Shown piece by piece: positions 6,698 to 32,831 of a stretch of DNA of 38,584 nucleotides. Under the pieces are notes generated by a model. It did no database searches, was not told where the DNA came from, and saw nothing but the letters and a program-made list of their open reading frames with translations. The position numbers and the translations under genes were made by a program. Each line of letters opens with the position of its first letter. Position 1 is the first letter of the stretch. The DNA comes from an uncultured Bacilli bacterium (GTDB lineage Bacteria; Bacillota_I; Bacilli_A; RF39; UBA660). The stretch spans positions 1 through 38,584 of the forward strand of contig CANRAA010000004.1 in NCBI GenBank assembly GCA_947628485.1, given 5' to 3'.

Positions 6698-6726
6698 AAA
6701 TTCACTCCTTACTTAATACTTAAATT

Positions 6727-6735
6727 ATTATAGCA
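6727..6735 (-). promoter_or_regulatory. Extended -10 promoter of cdaA-cdaR
   Basis: The minus strand reads TGC-TATAAT (-10 at 6727-6732) with no good -35. It places the transcription start about 20 nt before AAGGAGTGA of cdaA. Confidence 0.6.
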
Positions 6736-6745
6736 AATATTTTGC

Positions 6746-6768
6746 AAAATAAAAAGTCCCTTAGGACT
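6746..6768 (-). terminator. Terminator of the prepilin-rnr-smpB operon
   Basis: Stem AGTCC/GGACT (6755-6759 with 6764-6768) overlaps the stop codon at 6761. It is followed on the minus strand by TTTTTATTTT. Confidence 0.65.
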
Positions 6769-7069: not shown

Positions 7070-7109
7070 TATAATCCTCCTAGTTAATTATATTATTTAT
7101 TTCTTTTTT

Positions 7110-8189: not shown

Positions 8190-8191
8190 TA

Positions 8192-10691: not shown

Positions 10692-11043
10692 TTTCTTCCC
10701 CTCTTATATAAGTACATTTCTTCTCTCCATCACCTGATATAGTAACTTTTACTTCCTCATTTTTATCTATTTCTTTATTTGTACAAGAATTAATTTCTGT
10801 TCCAATAAAGCCATCACTAATTAAATCTCCTAAAGTAATGGTACAACCACCTAAACATTTACTTTGATTAAGTCCCACATAAACACAAGCTGCCTCTTCT
10901 ACTTCTTTTACAAAATTATGGCATTTATCATTATCTTCACTATTAAGCATACTTGAGATATTAATAGTTACTAATACCCCTAAGGCGGCAACAAGAGCAA
11001 TAACTACTAAAATTTCTATTAATGTAAATCCTTTATTATTCAT
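10681..11043 (-). CDS. Type IV prepilin-like (pseudopilin) protein
   Basis: The N-terminus MNNKGFTLIEILVV is a textbook prepilin signal: cleavage after Gly5, Phe at mature +1, Glu at mature +5, then one hydrophobic helix to about residue 30. The remaining domain is small and has five or six cysteines, suggesting disulfides. It resembles ComGC/GspG-type major pseudopilins in the first 40 residues only. No other pilus or prepilin-peptidase gene is in the window, so it is an orphan here. I prefer the ATG at 11043 over an in-frame GTG at 11052 because it gives the usual short leader. It overlaps rnr by 11 nt. Confidence 0.85.
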   Translation of the reverse strand: MNNKGFTLIEILVVIALVAALGVLVTINISSMLNSEDNDKCHNFVKEVEEAACVYVGLNQSKCLGGCTITLGDLISDGFIGTEINSCTNKEIDKNEEVKVTISGDGEKKCTYIRGEENEG

Positions 11044-11058
11044 ATCTATCACATCTTA

Positions 11059-11067
11059 ATTATAGCA
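11059..11067 (-). promoter_or_regulatory. Extended -10 promoter of the prepilin-rnr-smpB operon
   Basis: The minus strand reads TGC-TATAAT (-10 at 11059-11064) with a weak -35. The predicted start of RNA is about 10 nt from the ATG at 11043, and there is no clear Shine-Dalgarno, so the first gene may be nearly leaderless. Confidence 0.55.
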
Positions 11068-11070
11068 CGT

Positions 11071-11106
11071 AAAAAATAAAAAAGATATTCTAATACAAGA
11101 ATATCT
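11071..11106 (-). terminator. Terminator of the XRE regulator gene
   Basis: An 8-bp stem AGATATTC/GAATATCT (11083-11090 with 11099-11106) is followed on the minus strand by a T-rich tract over 11071-11082. It lies 4 nt after the stop at 11110. Confidence 0.8.
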
Positions 11107-11109
11107 AAA

Positions 11110-11352
11110 CTATTTAATATCGATATCTAAATCATCAAATACTTTGTCGTCAAAAAACTTACTTAAAGGAATATCAAATCCCTCACATATCTTACAAATT
11201 GTTACAATAGTAGGATTTTTACTACGACCATTTAAAATACTATCAACTGTACTTTGCATAAGTCCCGCATTTGTTGATAACTTATTAACGGTCATATTCC
11301 TTTCATATAATAATTTATTTATTTTCGTTTTTATTGCTTCATTCACTTTCAT
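11110..11352 (-). CDS. XRE-family DNA-binding regulator
   Basis: A Cro/C1-type helix-turn-helix fills almost the whole 80-residue protein. The recognition region runs from NKLSTNAGLMQSTVDSILNG into NPTIVTICKICEGF, then IPLSKFFDD and an acidic tail. I chose the ATG at 11352; an in-frame TTG lies 9 nt upstream, and neither has a strong ribosome site. It has its own terminator. Several inverted repeats in the gene-poor region just upstream (11398-11523) are candidate binding sites, and it neighbours the toxin-like locus. Confidence 0.85.
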   Translation of the reverse strand: MKVNEAIKTKINKLLYERNMTVNKLSTNAGLMQSTVDSILNGRSKNPTIVTICKICEGFDIPLSKFFDDKVFDDLDIDIK

Positions 11353-11397
11353 AACTATCAACCCATATTAATAATATAACTAAGTTTCTCTAACCAT

Positions 11398-11523
11398 TTA
11401 ACGATAAATCGGTATTTCTTTACTATTTCCAACATTACCTATATATCGTTAACTTTTCTGTCAATATTTTTACATTTTCATTATTTATTAATTTTATATA
11501 TGTTGTAAATACCGAATATTTAC
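11398..11523. promoter_or_regulatory. Operator-like inverted repeats in a gene-free region
   Basis: The gap 11362-11640 holds no gene that I can support. It contains TTAACGATA/TATCGTTAA (11398-11406 with 11444-11452), TCGGTATTT/AAATACCGA (11409-11417 with 11507-11515) and the compact palindrome GTAAATA-ccgaa-TATTTAC (11505-11523). These are candidate sites for the XRE regulator at 11110-11352. Confidence 0.4.
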
Positions 11524-11605
11524 ATAAAAATCTTATCTTAATTAAAAACTTAAGTCAATTAATTAATAACAAATGTGGGGTATTTTAGATTAATTTAAGA
11601 TATGG

Positions 11606-11634
11606 TTGTATATTTATTTAAAGTTTAGTATAAT
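11606..11634 (+). promoter_or_regulatory. Promoter of the putative antitoxin RNA
   Basis: TTGTAT (11606-11611), a 17-bp spacer, then a perfect TATAAT (11629-11634). The predicted transcription start is near 11641, exactly where a hairpin-forming sequence begins. Confidence 0.65.
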
Positions 11635-11640
11635 ACAAAT

Positions 11641-11697
11641 AGATAACGCAAGAAAGTGCGTTGTCTAATATGCCGCTACCAATTTGGTAGTGTTTTT
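11641..11697 (+). ncRNA. Putative antisense (antitoxin) RNA
   Basis: A roughly 57-nt RNA is predicted from the promoter at 11606-11634. It has two hairpins. The first is formed by AACGCA/TGCGTT (11645-11650 with 11657-11662), extended by outer pairs. The second is a terminator, CGCTACC/GGTAGTG (11675-11681 with 11687-11692 and nearby), followed by TTTTT. It is antisense to the last codons and 3' end of the 32-residue peptide gene on the other strand. It contains no credible ORF of its own. Confidence 0.55.
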
Positions 11698-11774
11698 AAT
11701 TCTTTTATAACCAAAAGAAATAAAAGAATAAAAACAATGAAAACTAATACATTAATCAATGTTTTATTTCTCAT
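11676..11774 (-). CDS. 32-residue hydrophobic peptide, putative type I toxin
   Basis: The ATG at 11772-11774 opens 32 codons ending in TAG at 11676-11678. The peptide begins MRNKTLINV, has about 15 strongly hydrophobic residues (VFIVFILLFLLVI) and ends KELKTLPNW: a single membrane helix with basic residues on both sides, the usual form of small membrane toxins such as Fst, TxpA, BsrG or AapA1. GGAAGTGAGG lies about 4-12 nt upstream. That ribosome site is complementary to a segment 26-34 nt further upstream, so translation should be blocked in the full transcript. A plus-strand RNA overlaps the 3' end. The peptide is below the usual gene-calling length. I do not recognise it as a known toxin; the assignment rests on architecture. 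Confidence 0.65.
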   Translation of the reverse strand: MRNKTLINVLVFIVFILLFLLVIKELKTLPNW

Positions 11775-11782
11775 AGGCCTCA

Positions 11783-11825
11783 CTTCCTTTCTTCTGAACC
11801 TAACCCCCTTGATAAGGAAAGGAAG
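11783..11825 (-). promoter_or_regulatory. Shine-Dalgarno-sequestering hairpin
   Basis: In the minus-strand transcript CTTCCTTTC (11825-11817) pairs perfectly with GAAAGGAAG (11791-11783), the ribosome-binding region of the peptide gene, across a 25-nt loop. Past one mismatch the stem can extend by 2-4 more pairs. This is a cis-acting anti-SD, as in several type I toxin mRNAs. Confidence 0.6.
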
Positions 11826-11872
11826 AGAAAAAACGAAAATGCGACAACGTCTTTTTCTTGCGTCGGTTATTT

Positions 11873-11901
11873 ATTTTAATAACAAGTCAACAAAAAGTCC
11901 A
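11873..11901 (-). promoter_or_regulatory. Candidate promoter of the toxin-like mRNA
   Basis: The minus strand reads TGGACT (11896-11901), a 17-bp spacer, then TAAAAT (11873-11878). The predicted transcription start, about 11866, coincides with the start of the 5' fold-back arm. The match is moderate. Confidence 0.4.
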
Positions 11902-11908
11902 TGGGAGG

Positions 11909-11936
11909 TTTTGACAAGTTTTGTCGTATTTTGACG
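11909..11936. promoter_or_regulatory. Three 8-bp repeats at exact 10-bp spacing
   Basis: TTTTGACA (11909-11916), TTTTGTCG (11919-11926) and TTTTGACG (11929-11936) are spaced one helical turn apart, just upstream of the candidate toxin promoter. This is the usual pattern of a multi-subunit regulator site. Confidence 0.45.
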
Positions 11937-11950
11937 AATATATTAATTTT

Positions 11951-11978
11951 TTTTACCAAAATGATTATTTTGGTAAAA
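11951..11978. promoter_or_regulatory. 12-bp-arm palindrome, not terminator-like
   Basis: TTTTACCAAAAT (11951-11962), loop GATT, and ATTTTGGTAAAA (11967-11978). The flanking T and A runs have the wrong polarity for an intrinsic terminator on either strand, so an operator or boundary element is more likely. Confidence 0.45.
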
Positions 11979-12006
11979 ACACAAAAAATAAATTAAATTT
12001 TTTTAC

Positions 12007-12035
12007 AAAAATAAGTGTGCTTTCACACACTTATT
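12007..12035 (-). terminator. Terminator of the surface-protein operon
   Basis: A 10-bp perfect stem AATAAGTGTG/CACACTTATT (12010-12019 with 12026-12035) overlaps the TGA stop at 12023 and is followed by TTTTT on the minus strand. Confidence 0.8.
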
Positions 12036-13279
12036 ATAAATGGATCATCTTCTGTTCCTTTGCCCGTTAAAGTAATAGATGGAATTAGATAAAAGACAGG
12101 GCGGACCGCTTCTGGGCCATCTAAACTAGTACCATTAAAGTTCCCTAGCCTATAGGCTATAGAATATGCCGTGTAATTATAAGCCCGAGAAGAATATCTA
12201 GTCATTGTCCATTCCCATATACCACTATATTTACTTTCACTTTCTGTTGTTCCATTCTTTAAATGTAACCAACTATTTGCATCAAGTTTATATGTCCAGG
12301 AAAAGTAATAATCACTGGCATACATTAAACCGGTTTTATATGTCTTACCTGTTATCTCCTTTTTTTCATCTGTTATTCCTATTGCACTTGGAAAATTAGT
12401 ACCACCACCTATGTACCATTTTACATCACTATCTATTATACTATTCCATGGTAATGTACTTGCTATTGTTGGTAAGTATATATTATTTATGTAGTATTGT
12501 GCCGTTGGAGTAGTTACTGCATCGTCTATAGAATAATCCCACTTGCATTTACCATTCTCAGAATCAACATCACCGCAATATGTCGCATCATGTCCATTAG
12601 CCCATTTCAATGTTTTTACAGAACCATTTTCTTTTACTGGGGTGGCTTTGATTATTTTTAGTTGATTTGGAACTAATCCTAATTCTCTATTAACTTTTTC
12701 TGTTGTTATTCCTATTATTCTGTACAAATAAGTATCTTTATTACTTGTACAAGTACTTTCATCATTTGTTCCAAAACATATATAGTTATTTAATAAGTGA
12801 TTATTGGCATCATCTTTCGTTCCAATATATCTTAATAGTTCGTTATCCTCTTGTACTGTTTTTAAATATGCCGGACCAGTTGTTTTATAAAGTGTTTGTA
12901 AAAGTGCTGTTGTTTTTAAATTATAAAAATATAAAGTACAATATATAGTGTTTTTAGTTTTAATATGAACTTTATTATTTTCAAATGTAACAATTTCTTC
13001 ACTTGGGATTATACTTCCTCCACTATCTGTACATTCACTTCCATAATATTCATATGTATTACTATCAGGCCATAATGTTCTACTTGTATTTTCTTCATAA
13101 TTTCCATTTTCATCTATTACTACTATTGATAATGTCTTATCTTTATTATTAAATACATCTTTAGTTTCTACTTCTTCTAAAATGTTATTATTGTCTTCAT
13201 TTATATAAGAGGTTGATATTTCTACTATTAATCCTATTGTTAGTATTATTATTAATATATTTATTATGTTCTTCTTCAT
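12023..13279 (-). CDS. Secreted/anchored surface protein with DUF6273-like C-terminus
   Basis: This 418-residue protein has an N-terminal hydrophobic helix (about 5-24, INILIIILTIGLIVEI) that serves as signal or anchor. The outside region has Cys pairs (CTDSGG; YICFGTNDESTC; YCGDVDSENGKC) and aromatic-rich repeats. The end reads EAVRPVFYLIPSITLTGKGTEDDPFII. The pattern VRPVxYL...GxGTxxxPxxI recurs in many surface proteins of gut Firmicutes and resembles the end of DUF6273/sulfatase-modifying-factor-like folds; this is from memory of the pattern. AAGGAG precedes the ATG, 14 nt after the upstream gene, so the two form an operon. Adhesion or ligand binding is a guess. Confidence 0.8.
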   Translation of the reverse strand: MKKNIINILIIILTIGLIVEISTSYINEDNNNILEEVETKDVFNNKDKTLSIVVIDENGNYEENTSRTLWPDSNTYEYYGSECTDSGGSIIPSEEIVTFENNKVHIKTKNTIYCTLYFYNLKTTALLQTLYKTTGPAYLKTVQEDNELLRYIGTKDDANNHLLNNYICFGTNDESTCTSNKDTYLYRIIGITTEKVNRELGLVPNQLKIIKATPVKENGSVKTLKWANGHDATYCGDVDSENGKCKWDYSIDDAVTTPTAQYYINNIYLPTIASTLPWNSIIDSDVKWYIGGGTNFPSAIGITDEKKEITGKTYKTGLMYASDYYFSWTYKLDANSWLHLKNGTTESESKYSGIWEWTMTRYSSRAYNYTAYSIAYRLGNFNGTSLDGPEAVRPVFYLIPSITLTGKGTEDDPFIISV

Positions 13280-13293
13280 TTCTTTCTCCTTAA

Positions 13294-13968
13294 CTATTTA
13301 AAATATGCCTTACATATATTTGGGCCTATACTTTCTATATCTAATGTATTATTTTCATATTTTATATTTGTTTCTATTTCTTTATTATTACAAGTAAAAT
13401 CTATAAACGTTACATTATCGGGTATGGTATTTATTATTTTATAATTATTACCATTATACTTTCTTGTTCCATTTATATCTTGTAAGTAGGCATATACTAT
13501 AACATCTAAATTGTTGTTATTTTCATAATCATAATATATCCGACATACTATTTGATTTGGTTTGTTTTCTTCTACTTCTATATCTATTAATCCTTCACTA
13601 TTTATTGTATAACTATTATAAGTTGTTCCTTCTTCTTTATCTTTAGAATAACAATTTGATAATTCTTTATTTACTACGTAATTAGTTACGGGTATACCTT
13701 TACTCTCTACATATCTATTTTCACTATTTGGAGTTTCTGTATAAAAGATTACATTAACATCAGTATGTTTCTCTATTGGACCTGTCTTTACTTTTTCTCC
13801 ATCGCTAGCAAAGTCTCCCACTTTACTATTAAAGATGGGTGTCCATTCTGTTTCAACATTATAATAAGCATGGGTATATTTATTTAATGTTACAAATACC
13901 GTAGTTACAAGCAATACTAAAACAATTACTTTTTTAAATTTTAAATTATTTTCTCTTTCTTTATTCAT
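13294..13968 (-). CDS. Secreted surface protein, possible SipW-type signal
   Basis: I chose the ATG at 13968 (MNKERENN...), with AAGGG upstream, over an upstream extension that runs through operator sequence. The 224-residue product has a basic start, a helix (about 15-33, VIVLVLLVTTVFVTL) and then HAYYNVETEW..FNSKVGDF. An AYY/AYF after the helix followed by a KVGDF-like stretch resembles substrates of SipW-type signal peptidases (TasA/camelysin group), but the match is weak. Two or three beta-rich segments with a few cysteines follow. It is first in an operon with the surface protein at 12023-13279 and divergent from an XRE regulator. Confidence 0.75.
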   Translation of the reverse strand: MNKERENNLKFKKVIVLVLLVTTVFVTLNKYTHAYYNVETEWTPIFNSKVGDFASDGEKVKTGPIEKHTDVNVIFYTETPNSENRYVESKGIPVTNYVVNKELSNCYSKDKEEGTTYNSYTINSEGLIDIEVEENKPNQIVCRIYYDYENNNNLDVIVYAYLQDINGTRKYNGNNYKIINTIPDNVTFIDFTCNNKEIETNIKYENNTLDIESIGPNICKAYFK

Positions 13969-13992
13969 AGATACCCTTCTAAAACAATTTAT

Positions 13993-14084
13993 ATTATCAC
14001 ACCTTATAGGATGTATTATTAATATAATATTACATCTAATAAGGCGTAAAGTCAATACATTTCCTAAATTGTAATGTATTATTA
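13993..14084. promoter_or_regulatory. Divergent promoter/operator region
   Basis: A minus-strand promoter candidate is TTGACT (14050-14055), 17 bp, TAATAT (14027-14032); an alternative is the extended -10 TGT-GATAAT at 13993-14001. Overlapping these are a 14-bp inverted repeat with two mismatches (CCTTATAGGATGTA near 14003-14016 against TACATCTAATAAGG near 14031-14044), an inverted repeat AATACATT/AATGTATT (14054-14061 with 14073-14080), and a direct repeat ATGTATTATTA (14011-14021 and 14074-14084). The last copy ends just before the ribosome site of the XRE gene. Confidence 0.5.
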
Positions 14085-16033: not shown

Positions 16034-16563
16034 TGAATATTTATTTATTTATCACTCTTATATTTGCGCTTATTTCCATCCTTGTATTAATCTATTTTAG
16101 TTCAGTAAATAAATTAAAATATTATAAAGAAAGAATGAATGCCGCTGAAAGTATAATTGAAGAAAGTTTAAATAAAAAATTAGATTTAATTATAAGCATT
16201 AATACGGAAGTTAAAAAAGTTACGGGTAAAAAAGATTATTTAAAAGATTATGTCGGAATTAGAGATTTAATCATTACCAATAATGAAAAAGATTTAAAAT
16301 TAGATGAAGCCGTAAAACTTATAAATGAATTAACGGATGATTATGAAGATATAAATAAAGATAAAGAATTTACTAAAAAGATGCACAATTTAAGGGAAAA
16401 TGAAGAATCTTTAGTCGCGGCTAAAATAACATTTAATCAAAATGCGTTAAAAAGTAATCAACTGATTAAAACTATTCCTTATAATATCGTGGCTAAACTT
16501 TCTAAATGTCGCATAAGAAGCTTCTATAATACCAACAAAACCGATAGTGAAGAAACATTTTAA
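16033..16563 (+). CDS. LemA-like membrane-anchored coiled-coil protein
   Basis: One N-terminal helix (about 4-24) is followed by a helical domain. The features fit LemA: YKERMNAAESIIEESLNKKLDLIISI (first part), an ENEE pair near the middle (LRENEESLVAAKITFNQNA), and a late FNQN...IKTIPYNIVAKL, where LemA proteins have YN...FPxNxxA. At 176 residues it is close to the usual LemA length (about 180-200). It is translationally coupled to the flippase (TAATG). Its role is unknown. Its stop codon overlaps the stop of the convergent ung gene and no terminator separates them. Confidence 0.7.
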   Translation: MNIYLFITLIFALISILVLIYFSSVNKLKYYKERMNAAESIIEESLNKKLDLIISINTEVKKVTGKKDYLKDYVGIRDLIITNNEKDLKLDEAVKLINELTDDYEDINKDKEFTKKMHNLRENEESLVAAKITFNQNALKSNQLIKTIPYNIVAKLSKCRIRSFYNTNKTDSEETF

Positions 16564-17219
16564 AGTTTCCAATCTATCGGTTTTAAATTATTTTTAATTA
16601 AAAAGTCATTAGTTTTAGAAAAAGGTTTTGACCCAAAGAAACCGTAACGAGCCGAAAAGGGTGAAGGATGCGGGCTGGTAATAACTAGGTGTTTCGGATT
16701 AGTTATATATTTTTGTTTTTCTTTGGCAAAATTCCCCCATAATATAAACACCACTGGTTCTTCCTTTTCATTTAAGGCTTTAATAATATAATCGGTTAAT
16801 AACTCCCACCCCAAATTCCTATGGGATGCTGGTTTATCTTTTTCCACCGTTAAGACCGCATTAAGAAGTAATACTCCTTCTTGAGCCCATTTAGTTAAAT
16901 CCCCATATTCACAAGGTGTAATTCCTAAATCATCATAAAGTTCTTTATAAATATTTTGCAGTGATGGAGGTATTTTTATCCCTTTTTGAACACTAAAAGA
17001 AAGACCATGGGCCTCTCCTTCTCCATGATAAGGATCTTGTCCCACAATAACTACTTTAGTATCTTTATAACTTGTTAATTTTAAAGCATTAAAAACATAA
17101 TTTTTGGGTGGATATACGGTAGTACTTTTATATTTTTCATTAATCATATATAAAAACTTCTTAAATCCTTCACTACTTTCAATTACTTTTAATACTTCAT
17201 CCCAATCATTTCCTATCAT
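16560..17219 (-). CDS. ung: Uracil-DNA glycosylase, family 1
   Basis: It removes uracil from DNA in base-excision repair. The water-activating motif GQDPYHGEGEAHGLSFSV carries catalytic Asp at about residue 62, and the uracil/DNA-binding loop HPSPFSARYGFFG lies near the C-terminus; both are intact. The length of 219 residues is typical. AGAGGT precedes the ATG, only 2 nt after the stop of the upstream paralog gene, so it probably rides on that operon's transcript. Confidence 0.97.
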   Translation of the reverse strand: MIGNDWDEVLKVIESSEGFKKFLYMINEKYKSTTVYPPKNYVFNALKLTSYKDTKVVIVGQDPYHGEGEAHGLSFSVQKGIKIPPSLQNIYKELYDDLGITPCEYGDLTKWAQEGVLLLNAVLTVEKDKPASHRNLGWELLTDYIIKALNEKEEPVVFILWGNFAKEKQKYITNPKHLVITSPHPSPFSARYGFFGSKPFSKTNDFLIKNNLKPIDWKL

Positions 17220-17221
17220 AC

Positions 17222-18646
17222 TTACCTCTTAACTATTTCACTAGCACTCTTTTCCAAATCCCCTAGTTCTTTTACTATATAATTATTATTTAATTCTTGA
17301 TTTATTTTTCTACTTATTTCAAGTTCTCTTTCCACAAGTTCTCTTATTAAAACCGGTTTTGGAGGTATAAAAGCTAATCTTACTTCTCCCTTATTATCTT
17401 TTTTATTCTCTAATGGTTTAGTAAAATCTATTTTCTCATAACTTTTCTTTTGACTATCTAAATTATTTAAATAACTTAATCTTAATTCTTCTATTTCTTG
17501 GAATATTTCTAACTTTTTTACTTCATTATTTATTAAACTAGCTTTATTTATTAAATTATTTATGGTATCCTCTATTTCTTTTATTTCTAAACTTTTACTT
17601 TCCTTATTATCAACATTAATTTCTCTATCTATTTCCCCTTCCATATAAACATAATAAGGTAGTATCCCTTCACTTATTAAATTTCTTTCCGTTTCGTATT
17701 TTCTTACTTCTTTATTTCGAATTTTTATTAGTTCGTCAGTATAAAGTCTTGCCAAACTCATTAAATCATTAACAATATTTATTTTGTCCTCTTCATCTTT
17801 AATTTCTTTAGTTCTATCAAGTAATCCTCTAATCATTTGTAAAATATTATCTTTTTTGTTTTCTTCTTTTGTCTCTTCTCTTTTAGGTAAATAATCTTGA
17901 AAAATATCTCTAAACATAACATTGTTTAAAAAACTATACATTTCCGTATTTTCAAAATTACCATCATAACCATCAATACTGAAACTTACCCCCGAAAGCA
18001 AATTACGTTCCGAAATCAAAGTATCAGTTTTATCAACGAGCCATATAACAGGTCTAACATCAAGCCAAGCATATTCGCCATTTTCTTTTTCAAATCTTCG
18101 ATGTATATAAACACTTTTGATACTTTTTAAATCAACTTTATAACGAATAAATTTTTTGTTATAGTAATAAAATTCTTCACATATTTGATTATTTATATGA
18201 AATACTCTTCCGGTCTTTTTTAATTTATTTGCCTTATAATCTTCTTCTAACAGAAAATCCATATCAGCACTTATATATTGAGGGTATTCTCCTAGTTCGA
18301 CAAATTCACATTGTCCATCATAATAAGGCTTTACTCCTGGAAATACCTTATCTACTCTTCCCGGTAATTTTAAAACTGGTCTTATCCCCACTCTGAAATA
18401 ATTACTTTCTACCTCGTAATAATCACCAGCAAAATCAATTGCTCCTACTTTATTATTTACACCTTTAGTTCTAGTCCAAGAATAACACTCATTTCCTTCA
18501 GTTAATTTAACTAAAGTAGTATTAAGCATTTTATCTCCATATTTTTTTATAGCCTCTAATTGATAATCATGTTTAAAAGGATTTCTACTATCATTACCAT
18601 AAAATTCTTCTTTAGTAAGTAAAGTTATTTTTACATCATTAAGCAT
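17222..18646 (-). CDS. DUF6273-like repeat-family protein, type A, copy 1
   Basis: This 474-residue soluble protein has no signal or membrane helix. In order: KEEFYGNDSRNPFKHDYQL near the N-terminus; SWTRTKGVNN...VGIRPVLKLPGR (about 55-115), like the W-R-x-G...VRPVLxL end of DUF6273 domains; VELGEYPQ (about 132), like their beginning; VRPVIWLVD...LLSGVSF; FLNNVMFRDIFQDYLP (about 238-255); a charged helical linker; and a conserved C-terminal module (EGILPYYVYMEGEI...; ELVERELEISRKINQ; a final VKR). The domain name is inferred from motifs. Its middle-to-C-terminal half is nearly identical to that of the paralog at 20165-21595. The function is unknown. Confidence 0.7.
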   Translation of the reverse strand: MLNDVKITLLTKEEFYGNDSRNPFKHDYQLEAIKKYGDKMLNTTLVKLTEGNECYSWTRTKGVNNKVGAIDFAGDYYEVESNYFRVGIRPVLKLPGRVDKVFPGVKPYYDGQCEFVELGEYPQYISADMDFLLEEDYKANKLKKTGRVFHINNQICEEFYYYNKKFIRYKVDLKSIKSVYIHRRFEKENGEYAWLDVRPVIWLVDKTDTLISERNLLSGVSFSIDGYDGNFENTEMYSFLNNVMFRDIFQDYLPKREETKEENKKDNILQMIRGLLDRTKEIKDEEDKINIVNDLMSLARLYTDELIKIRNKEVRKYETERNLISEGILPYYVYMEGEIDREINVDNKESKSLEIKEIEDTINNLINKASLINNEVKKLEIFQEIEELRLSYLNNLDSQKKSYEKIDFTKPLENKKDNKGEVRLAFIPPKPVLIRELVERELEISRKINQELNNNYIVKELGDLEKSASEIVKR

Positions 18647-18674
18647 ATTTTCACCCTCTATTTATTTTTATAAT

Positions 18675-20162
18675 TTATCTTTTTACTACATCATTAGCAA
18701 ATTCTTTAAAATCTAAAAGTTCACTTCTAAAATCATTATTATTAATTTCTCTATCTATCCTTTCACTTATTTCTAATTCTTTTTCGACTAATTCTTTAAT
18801 TAATACCGGTCTAGGAGGTACAAAGGTTAATTTAACTTCTCCCGTACTTGTTTTAACTTTTTCTAAAGGTTTATTAAAATCTATTTTTTGATATGATTTA
18901 TTATTTTTATATAATTCAGTTAAATATTTATTTTTTAATTTCTCTATATTATTTAATATTTCTTCTTTTATTTTGTTGTCATTAATTAAACTTGCTCTTT
19001 CTCTAAGTTTATTTATAACATTTTCTATTTCTTTATTTTCTTTCTCTTTGTTATCTTCACTTATTTCTCTTTTTATTTCTCCTTCTATATATACATAATA
19101 AGGTAGTATTCCTTCACTTATTAAATCTCTTTCAGTTTGATATTTACTTTTTTCTTTATTCTTTATTTTTATCATTTCATTTCCATATAAATTGGCTAAG
19201 GTTTTAATATCTTCCACGATTAAAATCCTATCATTTATATCTTTGATAAGTTCTGTCATTTTTAATAAATCTCTTAACATATTTAATATATTATCATTAA
19301 ATTCTTTTTGATATTCTTCTTTTTCTTCTATTTCCACTTTTTTAGGAACATCCGTATTTTCTAAGATATCCTGTAAAAGAGTAGTATTCACAAAAGTATC
19401 AACATTAAAAAATCCATATGTATCTAAAAGATAAATACTATTTGTTAAACCCGCAATTAGGCCATCTAAACAAACAAGACGATTATTTTTATAATCACAA
19501 ACCCATTTTATTGGCTCTAACTTAATATAATATTTTTGACCTTTTTTAACTATACTCCCACTTGAAAGTCTAAATTCACCATCAACTAAAGCTTTGGCTC
19601 TTACATATTCTTCATTGTTATAAGAAATAATAGGAAAATATTTTTCAGTCACTTTTTCTTCTAAAGATAAATCAGTTTTCGGATAATAATGGATTTTTTT
19701 ATTCGTTTTTTGACCATAAGAAATAATATATTTCTCACCTTCTTCTGAAACCGCCCTTTTAGGGTATTTTCCAAAATAAACAATGTCTCTTCCTTGATCA
19801 TCCTTAATGGGGTTTTTAAATATTTCTTCTAAAGGACGAGAAAATTTAATTTCTGGAACAATTAAAAACTTAGAAATTGAGGTCAAATCAACCCAAACTC
19901 TTTCATTGGAATTAGTTATTACTCTCATTCTATTATTATCATGTTTTTTTGTTAAAAGACCATAAAAATCACTTGCAAATAATCGGGCAAAATCTGTAAT
20001 AGTTATATCACCGCTTTTAATTATAGATTGACCTTCTTGTCCAAACGTATAATAGTCAAGTTTGGCATCATAGGTATCATTATATAAATCCATCTTTATT
20101 TCGCCACAATATTCTTTTAATTCTGTTAATTTTAAATTTTCTTTCGATCTAAATATTCCCAT
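18675..20162 (-). CDS. DUF6273-like repeat-family protein, type B, copy 1
   Basis: This 495-residue protein shares the C-terminal module of its neighbours (ISEGILPYYVYIEGEIKRE; FVPPRPVLIKELVEKELEIS; a final VKR). Its different N-terminal part begins MGIFRSKENLKLTELKEY and has VPEIKFSRPLEEIFKN, then GRDIVYFGKYPKRAV and PIKWVCDYKNNRLVCLDGLIAGL. These align in order with the RPVLKLPGR, GEYPQ and PIEWL blocks of type A, so both types are versions of one layout. No membrane segment or catalytic motif is seen. It lies 28 nt upstream of the next gene in the operon. Confidence 0.7.
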   Translation of the reverse strand: MGIFRSKENLKLTELKEYCGEIKMDLYNDTYDAKLDYYTFGQEGQSIIKSGDITITDFARLFASDFYGLLTKKHDNNRMRVITNSNERVWVDLTSISKFLIVPEIKFSRPLEEIFKNPIKDDQGRDIVYFGKYPKRAVSEEGEKYIISYGQKTNKKIHYYPKTDLSLEEKVTEKYFPIISYNNEEYVRAKALVDGEFRLSSGSIVKKGQKYYIKLEPIKWVCDYKNNRLVCLDGLIAGLTNSIYLLDTYGFFNVDTFVNTTLLQDILENTDVPKKVEIEEKEEYQKEFNDNILNMLRDLLKMTELIKDINDRILIVEDIKTLANLYGNEMIKIKNKEKSKYQTERDLISEGILPYYVYIEGEIKREISEDNKEKENKEIENVINKLRERASLINDNKIKEEILNNIEKLKNKYLTELYKNNKSYQKIDFNKPLEKVKTSTGEVKLTFVPPRPVLIKELVEKELEISERIDREINNNDFRSELLDFKEFANDVVKR

Positions 20163-20164
20163 AA

Positions 20165-21595
20165 CTACCTCTTTATTATATCACTAGCATTTTTTTCTAA
20201 ATCTTCAAGTTCCTTTATTATATCATTATTATTTAATGCTTGATTTATTTTTCTACTTATTTCTAATTCTCTTTCCACAAGTTCTCTTATTAATACCGGT
20301 TTTGGAGGTGCAAAAGTTAATTTAACTTCTTCCTTATTATCTTTTTTATTTTCAAGTGGTTTAGTAAAATCTATTTTCTCATAACTTTTCTTTTGACTAT
20401 CTAAATTATTTAAATAACATAATCTTAATTCTTCAATTTCTTGTAATATCTCTAATTTTTTTACTTCATCGTTTATTGAACTAGCTTTTTCTTTTAATCT
20501 TTCTACTGTATTATCTATTTCTTTTAATTCTTTATTATTTTCATTATTATCAATACTTATTTCTCTTTCTATTTCTCTTTCCATATAAACATAATAAGGT
20601 AGTATTCCTTCACTTATTAAATCTCTTTCCGTTTCGTATTTTCTTACTTCTTTATTTCGAATTTTTATTAGTTCGTCAGTATAAAGTCTTGCCAAACTCA
20701 TTAAATCATTAACAATATTTATTTTATCATCTTCATCTTTAATTTCTTTAGTTTTATCTAGTAATTTTCTTATCATTTGTAAAATATTATCTTTTTTGCT
20801 TTCTTCTTTTTCTTCCTTTTTAGGTAAATAATCTTGAAAAATATCTCTAAACATTACATTATTTAAAAAGTCATACATTTCCGTATTTTCAAAATTACCA
20901 TCATAGCTATCTTTATTAAATCTTATTCCAGAGAGTAAACTACATTTCGAAATTAAAGTATCAGTTTTTTCATCTATTAACCATTCTATAGGAGTAACTT
21001 TAACCCAGACATAACTACCATTTACAAAATCATATAATCCATTTACTGTAGTATAATATTTATCTTCTAAATCAACTTTATAATAAATGGCCTTTGTTCC
21101 ATCTTTAAATTTATATTCTTTATAATCTTGATTATTTATATGATAAATTTTACCCGTTTCTGTAAAGGGATTGGTTCTATGTAAATCTTCAAGTGATCTA
21201 TGTGCATATTGGTGATATATTTCTTGGGGATATTCTCCTAATTTAACATAATGATAATCTCTATAATTATACTTAACTTCAATATTCGGAAAAACTTTAT
21301 CGGCTCTTCCCGGTAATTTTATAACTGGTCTAATCGAAACATCCTTGTTATCACAAAATTCAGATTTATAATTATCATAAGGATCTATAACTACTACACA
21401 GCCAGTATCACTAGTTTTGGTCCAAAAAGATCTACTTCCACCCAATAATTTGACTAAATCAGTACAATAGATACCACTATAATTTTTTAAAACTTCTAAT
21501 TGATAATCATGTTTAAAAGGATTTCTATTATCTTTTTCACAAAATTCTTCTTTAGTTAGTAATGTAAACTTTATATCATTAAACATATTATTCAC
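20165..21595 (-). CDS. DUF6273-like repeat-family protein, type A, copy 2
   Basis: This 476-residue type A member has NPFKHDYQLEVLKNY; FWTKTSDTGC...SIRPVIKLPGRADKVF; YVKLGEYPQ; PIEWLIDEKTDTLISKCSLLSGIRF; and FLNNVMFRDIFQDYLPK. The linker and C-terminal module are almost identical to the gene at 17222-18646. Three of its codons upstream of KFTLL (MNN MFND) offer two start ATGs; AGAGGGTGA lies just upstream. It has its own promoter (21616-21644), unlike the other internal genes. It ends 2 nt before the next gene. Confidence 0.7.
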   Translation of the reverse strand: MNNMFNDIKFTLLTKEEFCEKDNRNPFKHDYQLEVLKNYSGIYCTDLVKLLGGSRSFWTKTSDTGCVVVIDPYDNYKSEFCDNKDVSIRPVIKLPGRADKVFPNIEVKYNYRDYHYVKLGEYPQEIYHQYAHRSLEDLHRTNPFTETGKIYHINNQDYKEYKFKDGTKAIYYKVDLEDKYYTTVNGLYDFVNGSYVWVKVTPIEWLIDEKTDTLISKCSLLSGIRFNKDSYDGNFENTEMYDFLNNVMFRDIFQDYLPKKEEKEESKKDNILQMIRKLLDKTKEIKDEDDKINIVNDLMSLARLYTDELIKIRNKEVRKYETERDLISEGILPYYVYMEREIEREISIDNNENNKELKEIDNTVERLKEKASSINDEVKKLEILQEIEELRLCYLNNLDSQKKSYEKIDFTKPLENKKDNKEEVKLTFAPPKPVLIRELVERELEISRKINQALNNNDIIKELEDLEKNASDIIKR

Positions 21596-21615
21596 CCTCT
21601 ATTATCTATATTAGT

Positions 21616-21644
21616 AGTATAGTCTTACTTTATTTTAAAGTCAA
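21616..21644 (-). promoter_or_regulatory. Internal promoter in the paralog array
   Basis: The minus strand reads TTGACT (21639-21644), a 17-bp spacer, then TATACT (21616-21621), upstream of the gene starting at 21595. It is the only strong-looking promoter between 24624 and 16560. Confidence 0.6.
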
Positions 21645-21647
21645 TTT

Positions 21648-23129
21648 TTATCTCTTAACTATATTTGTAACAAAATCATCAAACTTGCCTAAATCACTGC
21701 GTATCTCATTATTGGCTATTTCTCTATCTATTCTTCTACTTATTTCTAACTCTTTTTCCACAAGTTCTTTTATTAATACCGGTCTAGGTGGCACAAAGGT
21801 TAATTTAACTTCTCCCGTACTTGTTTTAACTTGTTCTAAAGGTTTATTAAAATCTATTCTTTGATAAGGTATTTTCCCTTTAAATAACTCCTTTAAATAA
21901 TCTTGATTTAATTCCTCTATTTGTAACATTATCTCATTCTTTACTTCTACATCATTAATTAAACTGGCTCTTTCTTTAAGTTTATTAATAACCATTTCGA
22001 TTTCTTTGTTTTCTTGTTCTTTATTATCTTCCTTTACCTCTCTATTAATTTCCCCTTCAAGGTAAACATAATAAGGTAAAATACCATTTCTAATCAATTC
22101 TCTTTCGGTACTGCCGTAAACACTTTTTTCTTTATTTTTTATTTTGATTAGTTCTGTTCCATATAAATTAGCTAGTACTCTTATATCTTCTACGATTAAA
22201 ACCTTATCTTCGATATCTTTGATAAGTTCTGTGTTAATTATCAGTTCTCTTAACATGTTTAAAATATTATCTTTTATTTCGATATTATCACTTTTACCTT
22301 CTTCATTTTTAGACTCTTCTAATTTAGGAACTTCCACAAATTGTTTTATATCAGGTAATAAACAATTTTTTAAAAAATCATAAACAGTTGATTTATTAAA
22401 ATCAATTTTTACATTATAATTATTATAAGGAATACCTGAAATTAAACCATCAAGACAAACAAGACGATTATTTTCATAATCACATAACCATTTAATTGGT
22501 TTTAATTTTATAACATAATCAGCATTAAAAGAAACTTGTTTTTTATTTCTTAAAACTTCACTAGAAATTAAAGTTGTTTTAGGTCTGACTTCAATATATT
22601 CGGCATTATTATAAGTTATTACAGGATGTTCATAAAATATATAATTATTATAATGTTCATAAACGGAAAAAGTGTGAACAGCATAATGAATTGATTTATC
22701 GGTTTCTGCACTCTTCATGATAATGTCATCTTTTTCAACATCTGAAACAGCTTCGATTGGGTATTTACTAAAGTAAACTATATCTCTTCCTTTGTCATCT
22801 TTTTGAACATTTTTAAATATTTCTTTTAAAGGTTTTTCAAACTTAAGAACGGGAGCCAAAAGAAAGCCATCTGATATAGTAGTTTCAAAATAATTTGTTG
22901 AATCAGTTAAATCAGTAATTGTTCCCACTCTATCATCACTATATTGGGTTTTAGTAAGTAGCGCGTGAAAATGCTCCGTAAACATGAAAGAAAAATCTGA
23001 AGGTGTAACATCACTAAACTTAATTATTTTATCATTAGCATCCAGTAAATCAATATCAATATTACCGTAGTAGTCTGATATTGAAATCTCTTTTGCGGGT
23101 GGTACAACTTCTTTTTTAAAAATACTCAT
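21648..23129 (-). CDS. DUF6273-like repeat-family protein, type B, copy 2
   Basis: This 493-residue protein begins MSIFKKEVVPPAKEISISDYYGNIDIDLL (first part), with LLAPVLKFEKPLKEIFKN, GRDIVYFSKYPIEAV, PIKWLCDYENNRLVCLDGLISGI and FLKNCLLPDIKQF. The acidic linker KLEESKNEEGKSDNIE and the shared C-terminal module follow. It is most like the gene at 23155-24624. A stretch around the linker (about 22261-22350) is identical in DNA to that gene while other parts differ, which points to conversion or recent mosaic duplication. It has no membrane segment. The function is unknown. Confidence 0.7.
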   Translation of the reverse strand: MSIFKKEVVPPAKEISISDYYGNIDIDLLDANDKIIKFSDVTPSDFSFMFTEHFHALLTKTQYSDDRVGTITDLTDSTNYFETTISDGFLLAPVLKFEKPLKEIFKNVQKDDKGRDIVYFSKYPIEAVSDVEKDDIIMKSAETDKSIHYAVHTFSVYEHYNNYIFYEHPVITYNNAEYIEVRPKTTLISSEVLRNKKQVSFNADYVIKLKPIKWLCDYENNRLVCLDGLISGIPYNNYNVKIDFNKSTVYDFLKNCLLPDIKQFVEVPKLEESKNEEGKSDNIEIKDNILNMLRELIINTELIKDIEDKVLIVEDIRVLANLYGTELIKIKNKEKSVYGSTERELIRNGILPYYVYLEGEINREVKEDNKEQENKEIEMVINKLKERASLINDVEVKNEIMLQIEELNQDYLKELFKGKIPYQRIDFNKPLEQVKTSTGEVKLTFVPPRPVLIKELVEKELEISRRIDREIANNEIRSDLGKFDDFVTNIVKR

Positions 23130-23154
23130 ATAAGCCCTACTTTCTATTTATAAT

Positions 23155-24624
23155 CTATCTCTTTACTACATCATTAGCAAACTCTTCAAAATTTGATAAT
23201 TCACTTCTAAAATTATTGTTATTTATTTCCCTATCTATTCTTCTACTTATTTCAATTTCTTTTTCAACTAACTCTTTTATTAATACGGGTCTTGATGGTA
23301 CAAAAGTTAACTTAATTTCTCCCATATTTGTTTTAACTTCTTCTAAAGGTTTATTAAAATCTATTCTTTGATAAGATGTTCTTCCTTTAAATAATTCATT
23401 TAAATAATCTTGGTTTAACTTAAATATTTCTAACATTATCTTATTCTTTACTTCTAAATCATTAATTAAACTGGCTCTTTCTTTAAGTTTATTAATAACC
23501 ATTTGTATTTCTTTGTATTCTTGTTCCTTGTTATCTTCATTTATCTCTCTATTAATTTCGCTTTCTATATAAACATAATAAGGCAAAATACCATTTCTAA
23601 TTAATTCCCTTTCGGTAATTCCATAAATACTTACTTCTTTATTTTTTATTTTTAAAAGTTCTCTTCCATAAAGATTAGCTAATACTTTAATATCTTCCAC
23701 GATTAAAACCTTATCATTCATATCATAGATAAGTTTCGTTTTATTTAATAGTTCTCTTAACATATTTAAAATATTATCTTTTATTTCGATATTATCACTT
23801 TTACCTTCTTCATTTTTAGACTCTTCTAATTTAGGAACTTCCACAAATTGCATTATATCAGGTAATAAATAATCTTTTAAAAAATCATAAACTGTTGTTT
23901 CTTTAAAATTAAAATTTTCATTTATTCTATTATATTGAATACCTGCAATTAAACCATCAAGACAAACAAGGCGATTATTTTCATAATCACATAACCATTT
24001 AATTGGTTTTAATTTTATAACACAATCAGCATTAGAAGAAATCTGTTTTTTATTTCTTAAAACTTCACTAGAAGTTACTCTAGATATAGCTTTAATATAT
24101 TCTTCGTTATTGTAAGACACAACTGAATAACTATCAATAGTACGCCCAAAGACACTATTAACATCAAAATGAATTTTTAAATTAGTTACTTCACCAGATG
24201 CAATCGTATTTTTTTCTTCATCATCGACAGCTTCGATTGGATATTTACTAAAGTAAACAATATCTCTTCCCTTTTCATCTTTTTGAGTATTTTTAAATAT
24301 TTCCTTTAAAGGTTTTTCAAACTTAAGAACGGGCGCTAAAAGACAATGATGAGATATAAATGTTGGATATTTACGAATACCATCTTGATCTATAAATCTT
24401 CCCTTTTCAACAATTATTCCCACATTATCTTCACTATATTGGGCTTTGGTAAGTAAACCAGCAATATAATTAGTAAACATTAAAGCAAAATCCGAAGGTT
24501 TAACATCATTATATTCAATTATTTTATCATTAGCATCTAGTAAATCAATATCTATATCACCATAGTAATCTGATATTGAAACCTCTTTTTTTGGGGACTC
24601 AACCTCTTTTTTAAAAATACTCAT
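23155..24624 (-). CDS. DUF6273-like repeat-family protein, type B, copy 3
   Basis: This 489-residue protein is first of the five in transcription order, 14 nt after rlmH, so the array is probably read from the rlmH operon. It has MSIFKKEVESPKKEVSISDY, LLAPVLKFEKPLKEIFKN, IVYFSKYPIEAVDDEE, PIKWLCDYENNRLVCLDGLIAGI, FLKDYLLPDIMQFVEVP and the common C-terminal module ending VKR. AGAGTAGGGT precedes the ATG. It is soluble, with no signal peptide. No biochemical role can be assigned. Confidence 0.7.
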   Translation of the reverse strand: MSIFKKEVESPKKEVSISDYYGDIDIDLLDANDKIIEYNDVKPSDFALMFTNYIAGLLTKAQYSEDNVGIIVEKGRFIDQDGIRKYPTFISHHCLLAPVLKFEKPLKEIFKNTQKDEKGRDIVYFSKYPIEAVDDEEKNTIASGEVTNLKIHFDVNSVFGRTIDSYSVVSYNNEEYIKAISRVTSSEVLRNKKQISSNADCVIKLKPIKWLCDYENNRLVCLDGLIAGIQYNRINENFNFKETTVYDFLKDYLLPDIMQFVEVPKLEESKNEEGKSDNIEIKDNILNMLRELLNKTKLIYDMNDKVLIVEDIKVLANLYGRELLKIKNKEVSIYGITERELIRNGILPYYVYIESEINREINEDNKEQEYKEIQMVINKLKERASLINDLEVKNKIMLEIFKLNQDYLNELFKGRTSYQRIDFNKPLEEVKTNMGEIKLTFVPSRPVLIKELVEKEIEISRRIDREINNNNFRSELSNFEEFANDVVKR

Positions 24625-24638
24625 ATAGACCCTACTCT

Positions 24639-25076
24639 CTATTTATGGTAACGTTCGTTATTATTAATCTTAAAAGCCCTATATATTTGCTCTAAAAGGA
24701 TACCTCTAAATAATCCGTGTGGAAAAGTAAGAGGTCCAAAACAAACACGAGCATTACACATTTTAATTATATCATTAGATAGCCCATTTGAGCCACCAAT
24801 CACAAAAGTTATAGTACTATTATGAGTAAATAAACTGTCAATATATTTAGCAAATGTTACACTATCAAAAGTATGACCATCTAAACATAAGGCAATATTA
24901 TAGTCTTCTTTTTTTATTACTTTTAATAAATTATTAGTTTCTTCCTTAAAATTATCATTATCTTTTACTTCAATAATTTCTATCTTATGATATTTAGAGA
25001 TTCTTTTTAGATAATCACTTATTAATTCTTCTAAATACTTCTCCTTAATTTTACCCACACAAATAATTTTAATCAT
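24639..25076 (-). CDS. rlmH: 23S rRNA pseudouridine-1915 N3-methyltransferase RlmH
   Basis: This SPOUT-fold methyltransferase uses SAM to methylate pseudouridine 1915 of 23S rRNA on the assembled ribosome. Supporting motifs are ALCLDGHTFDSVTFA (about 62-76), the knot FVIGGSNGLS (91-100), FPHGLFRGILLEQIYRAF (119-136) and the terminal RYHK. At 145 residues it is a little shorter than the usual 156-159. Its ATG overlaps the stop of walJ (ATGA). The order dnaB...walJ-rlmH is the common origin-proximal order in Firmicutes. Confidence 0.95.
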   Translation of the reverse strand: MIKIICVGKIKEKYLEELISDYLKRISKYHKIEIIEVKDNDNFKEETNNLLKVIKKEDYNIALCLDGHTFDSVTFAKYIDSLFTHNSTITFVIGGSNGLSNDIIKMCNARVCFGPLTFPHGLFRGILLEQIYRAFKINNNERYHK

Positions 25077-30692: not shown

Positions 30693-31712
30693 TTATTTAT
30701 TTTCTAAATCAATATGTAAATTTAATTCTTCTTCAGTTGGTAATTCTTTTAAAATATCCGATGGTAAATAGTCTAATAATTCATATGAACTAACTCCAAT
30801 GGGTTTATTTATATCTCTTAGTGCATATTCTACATTTAATTTATTTTTATTTCTAACAAGTATAATACCTATAGATGGATTATCTTGTTCTGTTTTTAAC
30901 ATATCGTCCAGTGCAGATAAATAATAATTCATTTTTCCAACATATTCTGGTATAAACTTTTTATTTTTAAGTTCAATAGCGATATAACAATGCAACTTCG
31001 TATGATAAAACAATAAATCAATAAAATTTTCTTCATCATTAACTGTAACTCTATATTGATTAGCAATAAAACTGAATCCATTTCCTAATTCTAACAAAGT
31101 CATCTTAATTCTATCTATCATTGCTTTTTCAATATCTTTTTCCTCAAAATTCTCACGTAAAGCGCCTACATCAAATATATAAGGATCTTTCATAATTTCT
31201 TTTGCTAAGGAACTTTGGGGTTGTAGAAGTGTTAGTTTAAAATTATTAGGTTTGTCGCCAAGGATTTGTCTCTTATATACATCTCTTCTTATTTGAATTT
31301 CTAAATAATTATAACTCCAACCATTATTATAAGTTTCTTTTATATACCAAAGTTTTTGATTATAACCCTTAACTCGATGCATTATTAATGTATTGTGTGA
31401 CCAAGGAATTTTATATGAATATTTCTTCAATTGTTCATTGTCTTTTACAGATAAATAATATTTCTTCATATCACGAAGATTTCTTGGAGAATATCCTTTT
31501 GCATTAGGAAATTCAAGTTTCAATTTAACCGACATTTCATTTATAAAATTATTACCATATACACTATTCTCATATATAATTTTACCAATATAAAAGTATA
31601 AATCCATTACTTTAGCATTAGCATCTTCGAATATTTCCAATTGTGTTTTTTTGATTTTAGTTACTATTTTATCCATAGCAATCTTGAAATCATTTAATTT
31701 AATTTCTACCAT
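30693..31712 (-). CDS. YhcG/DUF1016-family PDDEXK nuclease
   Basis: This 339-residue protein has the two-domain YhcG layout. The N-terminal DUF1016_N domain (about 1-150) has YFYIGKIIYEN, GYSPRNLRDMKKYY, IPWSHNTLIMHRV and YNYLEIQIRRDVYKRQ. The C-terminal PDDEXK nuclease domain has ENFIDLLFYHTKLHCYIAIE (Asp232, Glu247-x-Lys249), then FIPEYVGKMNYYLSALDD. The active-site residues are intact. Such genes often sit in restriction or defence islands; here there are no restriction-modification genes. AGAGAGG precedes the ATG, and a perfect palindrome lies 19 nt upstream of the ATG. An HTH-ImmA/IrrE gene is directly upstream. Confidence 0.92.
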   Translation of the reverse strand: MVEIKLNDFKIAMDKIVTKIKKTQLEIFEDANAKVMDLYFYIGKIIYENSVYGNNFINEMSVKLKLEFPNAKGYSPRNLRDMKKYYLSVKDNEQLKKYSYKIPWSHNTLIMHRVKGYNQKLWYIKETYNNGWSYNYLEIQIRRDVYKRQILGDKPNNFKLTLLQPQSSLAKEIMKDPYIFDVGALRENFEEKDIEKAMIDRIKMTLLELGNGFSFIANQYRVTVNDEENFIDLLFYHTKLHCYIAIELKNKKFIPEYVGKMNYYLSALDDMLKTEQDNPSIGIILVRNKNKLNVEYALRDINKPIGVSSYELLDYLPSDILKELPTEEELNLHIDLENK

Positions 31713-31730
31713 ATTTTACCTCTCTTGTGC

Positions 31731-31756
31731 AATTTGGCAGATGCATCTGCCAAATT
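31731..31756. repeat. Perfect 26-bp palindrome before the nuclease gene
   Basis: AATTTGGCAGATG (31731-31743) is followed immediately by its exact reverse complement (31744-31756), with no loop. It lies between the HTH-IrrE stop and the ribosome site of the YhcG-type nuclease. No T-run follows on the minus strand, so it is not a standard terminator. It could be an operator, a methyl-directed or nuclease recognition site, or an RNA hairpin. Confidence 0.9.
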
Positions 31757-31799
31757 ATTATTTATTAATTACTTTTTTTCTTATTTCATATTAAAACTT

Positions 31800-32831
31800 T
31801 TATTGAATATTAAAATACTCATACGTTGTTACCCCCAAATATTTAATTACTTCTTTACTGCTTATGATATTCTCAGCTTCTAATCTAAATATTATTTTAT
31901 TTCTTCTTAAAGGATGTTCATTTATATTTTTTACTTCTTCTCTTTTTAATCCTAATTTTGATAAACTCATAAATAAACTTTTTTTCTTATTTTCATCAAT
32001 TATATCAAGAGTATATAATCGCATTATCACCGCCCTTAAGGATACTTGATATTCTCTTGCTATTAATAATATTTCATTTAAAGAAACATTATTCGCCATT
32101 TTTCTTTTACTTATTTCCAGTTCATGTCTCATAGCCTCTTCTGGCATTAATAAGGCACTGGCAAAATAATTGCAATATATTTCTTTTTCTTTAATTGACA
32201 TGTCTTCTTTAAAGTTTAAAATTAAATGACCTAGTTCATGGGCTAGGGTAAATCTATTACGATAACCTTCTTTAGAAGATAGGATGATAAAAGCTAAGTT
32301 GTTAACAATTTCCGAAAAGCCATCAAATTTATCTTCAAAATTTACTTCGATGATTAAAAAATTATTATCTTCTAGTTTATTAGTTAAATTTTCAATGGCA
32401 CAATTTTCTTTAACTCCTAATAGTTTTCTGACCTTTAAAGCAATTTCTTCTAAAGACTCTAAATCATCAACATCAAAAGTCCATTTCTTTTTATCAAAAC
32501 TATAAACTTCATCTCCATAGTTTAATATTTCTAAATATTTTCCTATTTCATCACTTATAGCCATAATTAAGCCATCCTCTTTCTTCTTACTTAAAGAGGC
32601 TCTTTTTCTAAAATTATCATATTTTAAATTAGGCACTTTATAAGAATAGGCTAAATCAGATATTTTAACATTTAATATTTTAGATATAGCAATTAATCTT
32701 TTTGAGTTAGGAGCCATTGTTCCATCTTCATATTTTTTGATAGTTTGATGAGATACTCCAAGTAAATTAGCCATTTCTCGCATAGATAATCCCGATAACA
32801 AACGATATTTTTTTATATTTCTTCCGAGCAT
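31800..32831 (-). CDS. HTH-ImmA/IrrE-type regulatory metallopeptidase
   Basis: This 343-residue protein has an XRE helix-turn-helix at about 5-60 (IKKYRLLSGLSMREMANLLG, then SHQTIKKYEDGT) joined to an IrrE/ImmA zinc-peptidase domain. The zinc motif is HELGH (198-202) in RFTLAHELGHLILNF, with a third ligand region IYCNYFASALLMPEE. In mobile elements ImmA cleaves a separate repressor; fused forms act as single-protein sensors in stress or toxin-antitoxin circuits. AAGGAGG precedes the ATG. Its promoter is bracketed by an inverted repeat (32844-32879), which suggests self-repression. The nuclease gene downstream is probably in the same transcript. Confidence 0.9.
   Translation of the reverse strand: MLGRNIKKYRLLSGLSMREMANLLGVSHQTIKKYEDGTMAPNSKRLIAISKILNVKISDLAYSYKVPNLKYDNFRKRASLSKKKEDGLIMAISDEIGKYLEILNYGDEVYSFDKKKWTFDVDDLESLEEIALKVRKLLGVKENCAIENLTNKLEDNNFLIIEVNFEDKFDGFSEIVNNLAFIILSSKEGYRNRFTLAHELGHLILNFKEDMSIKEKEIYCNYFASALLMPEEAMRHELEISKRKMANNVSLNEILLIAREYQVSLRAVIMRLYTLDIIDENKKKSLFMSLSKLGLKREEVKNINEHPLRRNKIIFRLEAENIISSKEVIKYLGVTTYEYFNIQ

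Follow-up and report, generated by a model that had tools for sequence, protein, structure and literature searches.

What five similar genes are doing side by side between rlmH and ung, and from where their unusual modules derive, is the question raised by a 38,584-nucleotide stretch of DNA from an uncultured Bacilli bacterium (contig CANRAA010000004.1, positions 1 to 38,584; hereafter the window).

The array and its insertion site

The features discussed below, in the order in which they are transcribed, are as follows:

24639..25076, minus strand: rlmH, the upstream border of the insertion site; conserved in relatives
23155..24624, minus strand: paralog 1, A489 (489 aa); A-type N-module, DUF6273-like and permuted (~23839-24624), and predicted helical C-module (23158-23778)
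21648..23129, minus strand: paralog 2, A493 (493 aa); A-type N-module (~22332-23129) and C-module (21651-22271)
20165..21595, minus strand: paralog 3, B476 (476 aa, GTG start); B-type N-module (~20819-21595) and C-module (20168-20791)
21314..21430, minus strand: segment of B476, residues 56-94, counterpart of the DGR variable region (from alignment, loop dN/dS and codon bias)
18675..20162, minus strand: paralog 4, A495 (495 aa); divergent A-type N-module (~19314-20162) and C-module (18678-19295)
17222..18646, minus strand: paralog 5, B474 (474 aa); B-type N-module (~17873-18646) and C-module (17225-17851)
18365..18481, minus strand: segment of B474, residues 56-94 (SWTRT...RPVLKL), counterpart of the DGR variable region in AAA+ fusion relatives, fixed here (from alignment, variable-region positions, no template repeat and no NNY codon bias)
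16560..17219, minus strand: ung, the downstream border of the insertion site

The five paralogs between rlmH and ung are intact, co-directional open reading frames (474-495 aa, all on the minus strand) that can be aligned end to end, in agreement with a sequence-only reading of this DNA that had described five paralogs of 474-495 codons with a common layout. That reading also ordered two N-terminal types as B-B-A-B-A; we recovered the same X-X-Y-X-Y pattern, with the labels reversed (A-A-B-A-B), as along transcription the genes run A489, A493, B476, A495 and B474. A- and B-type proteins share ~20% identity over their N-modules (each ~260 residues) and ~57% over their C-modules, and the N-module of A495 forms a distinct A subtype, ~40% identical to the other A-type N-modules. 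Given these identities, and the recovery of both types by an independent profile (see below), the likeness between the paralogs is far above chance. As the gaps between genes from rlmH to ung are only 2-52 bp, these genes are probably co-transcribed with each other and with their neighbours.

By a simple hydropathy measure, no signal peptide or membrane helix was evident in any of the five proteins, as had been claimed: the mean over 19 residues peaked at 0.62-1.38 and never reached our criterion of 1.4 (a secreted control in the window scored 2.45), and the N-terminal maximum was at most 0.22. The array proteins are thus soluble-looking and, by hydropathy, cytosolic.

Close full-length homologs among 100 relatives were found only in members of the same genus, with eight copies in G020, six plus weaker matches in G027 (one copy ending at a contig end), two in G018 (one ending at a contig end) and one in G016. 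Copy number ranges from 0 to 8 across species of the genus, and the view of this array as an expansion is supported; in its own genome (G000; 1.30 Mb, 89.6% complete) we found no copies beyond the five. Wider searches identified the C-module, which is predicted to be helical, in one further genus (G348 and G472) and thus in only two genera overall, the named matches being rabbit-gut metagenome bins ('Lapin', uncultured Bacilli), and no homologs of the array were identified in viral contigs or INPHARED phages.

Copies of the family occupy one of two locations: the rlmH-ung site, or a second one next to LRR genes and a gene of 95 aa. Many genus members have rlmH and ung side by side, and others carry lineage-specific genes in the interval, namely one that is transporter-like, one of 428 aa accompanied by two small genes, or one of 202 aa (L185:3083-3691; L186:3242-5717; L129, L133, L142). 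Because the interval is empty or carries other cargo in most sampled members of the genus, it is best described as a variable insertion site, or hotspot, and the earlier description of an expansion inside a housekeeping operon has to be given up. In G472, decayed C-module fragments lie on both sides of an intact copy (G472:C3:9295-9405 and 13861-13968), which points to birth and death of the family. In G018, a retron reverse transcriptase (L033:5695-6654; best PADLOC model RT_Ec107-like) lies directly downstream of a family copy; having seen this arrangement only once, we did not adopt the retron as a functional partner.

Elsewhere in the window, two 185-aa genes in tandem (2903-3460 and 3490-4047) are identical over all 558 bases. 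The four tandem paralogs that adjoin them (44-2873) are diverged and have coiled coils and hydrophobic segments; one of these tandem genes matches Mycoplasma MG280 below threshold. A YhcG/DUF1016 PD-(D/E)XK nuclease gene (30693-32831) adjoins the gene of an XRE-type regulator, in which an ImmA/IrrE-like peptidase motif was recognised by eye.

A DUF6273-type module in permuted order

Scans of the five proteins against Pfam, NCBIfam and PHROGs gave no significant match, and none of them matched DUF6273 (PF19789), a C-type-lectin-like domain that occurs in phage tentaclins and DGR targets (PMC10743442), above its gathering score of 23.5 bits. A likeness to DUF6273 emerged when the order of the sequence blocks was considered. 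In canonical DUF6273 the order is GEYPQ, PI.W and FLN, with W.RS and RPA after them; the array family has its W.RT...RPVL half in front, followed by GEYPQ, PI.W and FLN. On family members the Pfam profile accordingly matches in crossed order, its end N-terminally and its start further along. The native family profile aligned to a canonical DUF6273 protein (L163) in three blocks in the wrong order, whereas a rotated family profile gave a single collinear block (hmm 61-271 to residues 316-541, 42.5 bits); with permutation allowed, a module-family profile that included the array scored 48-51 bits against the same protein. The rotated B474 sequence, taken singly, stayed below the Pfam reporting limit for DUF6273. 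From these profile comparisons, of which the rotated match to L163 is the strongest single result, it is well supported that the N-module is a circular permutant of DUF6273. The label "DUF6273-like" in the sequence-only reading therefore holds as a remote likeness, but not as a Pfam or NCBIfam match nor in block order. In the literature that we searched, coverage of which was partial, circular permutation was not described with DGRs or C-type lectins.

A profile search identified the N-module in many genera of the same bacterial family, where it is fused to a MoxR-like AAA+ domain (~580-720 aa), stands alone (~300 aa), is doubled, or lies behind a different N-terminal extension. An independent profile built without array members, i.e., from AAA+ fusions, single-domain and other copies, found the B-type proteins over the whole module (E-values of 1e-36 to 1e-45) and the A-type proteins mainly over its second half (1e-11 to 1e-21).

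In several relatives the genes for permuted module-AAA+ fusions adjoin a DGR-type reverse transcriptase (motifs LGNQ(S/T)SQ and YMDD). At five related loci we identified pairs of template repeat (TR) and variable region (VR) inside the permuted module with mismatches mostly at TR adenines (10/10 at L111, 12/13 at L112, 14/16 at L114, 12/12 at L117, where the reading frame is broken around the repeat, and 11/14 at L187), with binomial P of ~3e-6 to 1e-5 for each of the first four. The VR encodes '..VRVV..G.....R.GGARPAL', which aligns with residues 56-94 of B474, and all five cassettes place it close to the N-terminus of a soluble ATPase. The gene order at L187 (2198-7613) is a small candidate avd ORF, the TR, the reverse transcriptase, the module-AAA+ gene, a small AAA-like gene and a DUF2201-like metallopeptidase-vWA gene; DUF2201 was confirmed by Pfam in the equivalent of the last gene at L035. 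By sequence comparison, the nearest relatives of the array N-module are therefore the modules that DGRs mutate at the N-terminus of MoxR-like AAA+ proteins from the same bacterial family, and as these fusions are also soluble, a cytosolic location is normal for this branch. At L035, tandem genes made up of short W-rich repeat units (8050-13408), which by eye resemble helicase-associated domains, lie upstream of a module-AAA+ gene.

AlphaFold2 models of two full-length proteins had mean pLDDT values of 75.2 (A489; N-module beta-rich, C-module helical) and 71.2 (B474; C-module helical). Structure prediction and fold search had been suggested as a check; searches of PDB and BFVD with both models returned only nonspecific helical bundles (vinculin tail and the like). 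No C-type-lectin match to the N-module was listed in these searches, the lists being filled by the helical C-module, and a permuted domain may escape sequential aligners; presumably, the N-module fold is C-type-lectin-like. We did not adopt a kinship of the N-module to the hemopexin fold, for which there was a single weak PDB sequence match (37 positions, E-value 0.00036). A C-module profile found nothing convincing among PDB sequences or in Pfam.

Fixed loops and exchanged C-modules

We identified no credible TR for the array genes in their own assembly (~90% complete). This genome does have a DGR, on contig C7 (L091 = G000:C7:16000-35000; Avd, reverse transcriptase and a TR at 6204-6298, within 4799-10084), the TR of which matches, with mainly adenine mismatches, the RP-loops of secreted DUF6273 proteins on contigs C7, C3, C23, C40 and C93; its scores against the array genes were 9-12, where shuffled sequences reached a maximum of 14. 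The loops of the array genes also lack the NNY codon signature, with 11-17 of 22 codons ending in C or T, as compared with 18-20 of 22 in four of five DGR-family genes examined (13 in the fifth). All five module copies are unfused to AAA+, no module-AAA+ fusion was found in the genome and no MoxR gene lies beside the array; DUF2201 (PF13203) was found neither here nor in G027, G018, G016 or G348. By these sequence criteria, the array copies are not live DGR targets.

The C7 DGR has some features of its own. Its one template has several targets in trans, one adjacent and four remote secreted proteins (L156, L161, L164, L165), and Avd is preceded by a small protein (L091:8060-8341) that by eye resembles the MutS N-terminal mismatch-recognition domain, with no Pfam match. 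In the window, the genes at 12023-13279 and 13294-14055 include a paralog of the secreted DGR target, in a two-gene arrangement as on C7; the former was considered as a further trans target, and rejected, as the match of its VR, in the terminal loop, to the C7 TR was not above background.

Trees of the two modules of the array proteins do not agree. In trees of N-modules the proteins group by type across genomes, and C-module trees do not follow this grouping: by C-module, B474 and B476 form a cluster within the genome (support 0.998), although by N-module they are of different subtypes common to other species, and the C-modules of A489 and A493 have switched partners. In addition, many pairs of N-type orthologs have diverged more at synonymous sites in the C- than in the N-module, while for the pair of B paralogs in a single genome the C-modules are much more alike than the N-modules. 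This conflict between trees, together with the synonymous divergence, indicates that C-modules were exchanged or converted between paralogs. Conservation of the C-module across N-types suggests that it has one common role, e.g., in oligomerisation or docking.

Outside the loop dN/dS was mostly 0.15-0.6, which with the intact frames shows purifying selection on both modules. Differences between the paralogs are greatest in the former variable loop, where pN between paralogs is approximately equal to or greater than pS (over few loop codons). Between orthologs, loop dN was 0 for A493, and A495 and B476 vary there, again over few codons. We read this pattern, with its small codon numbers, as possible paralog-specific specificities, some of them stable.

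Proposed function and comparison with known systems

The anatomy and ancestry of the array proteins are well supported; from these we infer a function that would involve a C-type-lectin-like fold, ligand binding, a shared partner and a role in conflict or defence. With a rearranged DGR-type binding module and a shared rear half, the proteins look like an inherited, fixed-specificity family for internal recognition. We tentatively propose, with somewhat less than even confidence, that they are soluble, two-part recognition proteins whose specificity is fixed, related to the sensors that DGRs diversify in conflict systems, with an interchangeable common C-module. The N-module would present a ligand-binding surface around the 'WTRT...RPVLKL' loop. 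In relatives the module is part of a MoxR-like AAA+ ATPase paired with a DUF2201 metallopeptidase-vWA protein, its loop rewritten by a DGR; in the lineage of the window it is separate from both DGR and ATPase and carries a lineage-specific helical C-module. Through the former variable loop, each paralog may bind a fixed ligand of its own, whether an endogenous protein or a component of a phage or another intruder, while the common C-module may oligomerise or dock on one shared partner, so that several inputs would lead to one output. Duplication and C-module exchange would then keep the output end common and the input ends different. It is a bolder and unlikely conjecture that in the intracellular immunity of gut Bacilli a hypermutable sensor domain was turned into inherited receptors of fixed specificity, with permuted variable modules and a homogenised signalling module replacing the DGR-MoxR-vWA machinery.

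The main rival, which we consider rather doubtful, keeps the DGR-type fold for the N-module and sees in the array cytosolic adaptors for endogenous partners (e.g., scaffolds, or substrate adaptors of proteases or chaperones) with no role in conflict. The loop dN of 0 between the A493 orthologs fits such adaptors, and loop conservation between some orthologs is no less compatible with a housekeeping partner than with an intruder; the genes also lie among housekeeping genes with short gaps that suggest co-expression, there is no neighbour of known defence function at the array locus, and PADLOC had no match for the two of the five proteins that were run (B474 and A489). However, the patchy presence, the copy number of 0 to 8 within a genus, the two locations, the decayed fragments in one relative and a loop pN similar to pS between paralogs are unlike stable housekeeping adaptors. 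Some of the same facts would suit selfish or mobile cargo, in which case the tandem array would spread from one insertion site to another and benefit the host little, as the cargo of the site differs between species, some genomes have the second location, and copies are born and lost; this appears improbable, as the purifying selection on both modules speaks against it, as does the lack of a recombinase gene in the array of the window.

Two further alternatives come from what DUF6273 proteins and DGRs are elsewhere. Hypermutation of the array by a reverse transcriptase encoded elsewhere in the genome would be in keeping with the targeting of the same module in relatives and with the presence of the C7 DGR; this is very improbable and largely refuted by the C7 TR, which matches secreted DUF6273 proteins and the array genes not above background, by the lack of another credible TR in the ~90% complete assembly, and by loops without the NNY bias of active targets. 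Even less credible is a role as adhesins that are secreted or on the surface, as most DUF6273 proteins are: the canonical DUF6273 proteins of this genome do have an N-terminal hydrophobic segment, but none of the five array proteins has a signal peptide or membrane segment, and the relatives fused to AAA+ have the architecture of intracellular proteins.

The window shows a DGR-type module that apparently persists without mutagenesis on a different output domain. If our preferred reading of the array as recognition proteins is true, the family offers, for one bacterial sensor domain, a natural comparison between the hypermutated and the inherited form, and a tractable route to the ligands of DGR-diversified intracellular sensors.

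With DUF6273 (PF19789) the array shares the blocks GEYPQ, PI.W, FLN, W.R(S/T) and (I/V)RP(A/V), the RP-loop being the counterpart of the DGR variable hairpin; it differs in the permuted order, the sub-threshold Pfam score, the cytosolic location and the absence of current DGR targeting. Also close are the MoxR-vWA (VMAP) ternary conflict systems, the targets of which have been proposed as antigen sensors (PMC7159879, PMC10907252), as the array module is homologous to the DGR target domain of the family's MoxR-like AAA+ proteins, encoded beside vWA (DUF2201) genes. Unlike these systems, the genome of the array has no MoxR fusion, DUF2201 or matching TR, and the module is fused to the helical C-module instead. 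Furthermore, the published systems (PMC7159879, PMC10907252) mostly carry their C-type-lectin domain on the vWA protein or on a separate target, with a C-terminal VR, while in the L187-type relatives the VR is near the N-terminus. A C-terminal VR is near-universal in DGR targets, and most cellular targets are surface proteins (PMC8144416); the relatives, with a permuted module and a VR near the N-terminus of soluble MoxR-like ATPases, break this expectation. In the array, too, the equivalent loop lies at residues 56-94, and not at the C-terminus as in typical cellular targets, because of the permutation; what the array has in common with those targets is a binding loop and a modular architecture in which the partner domain can be exchanged.
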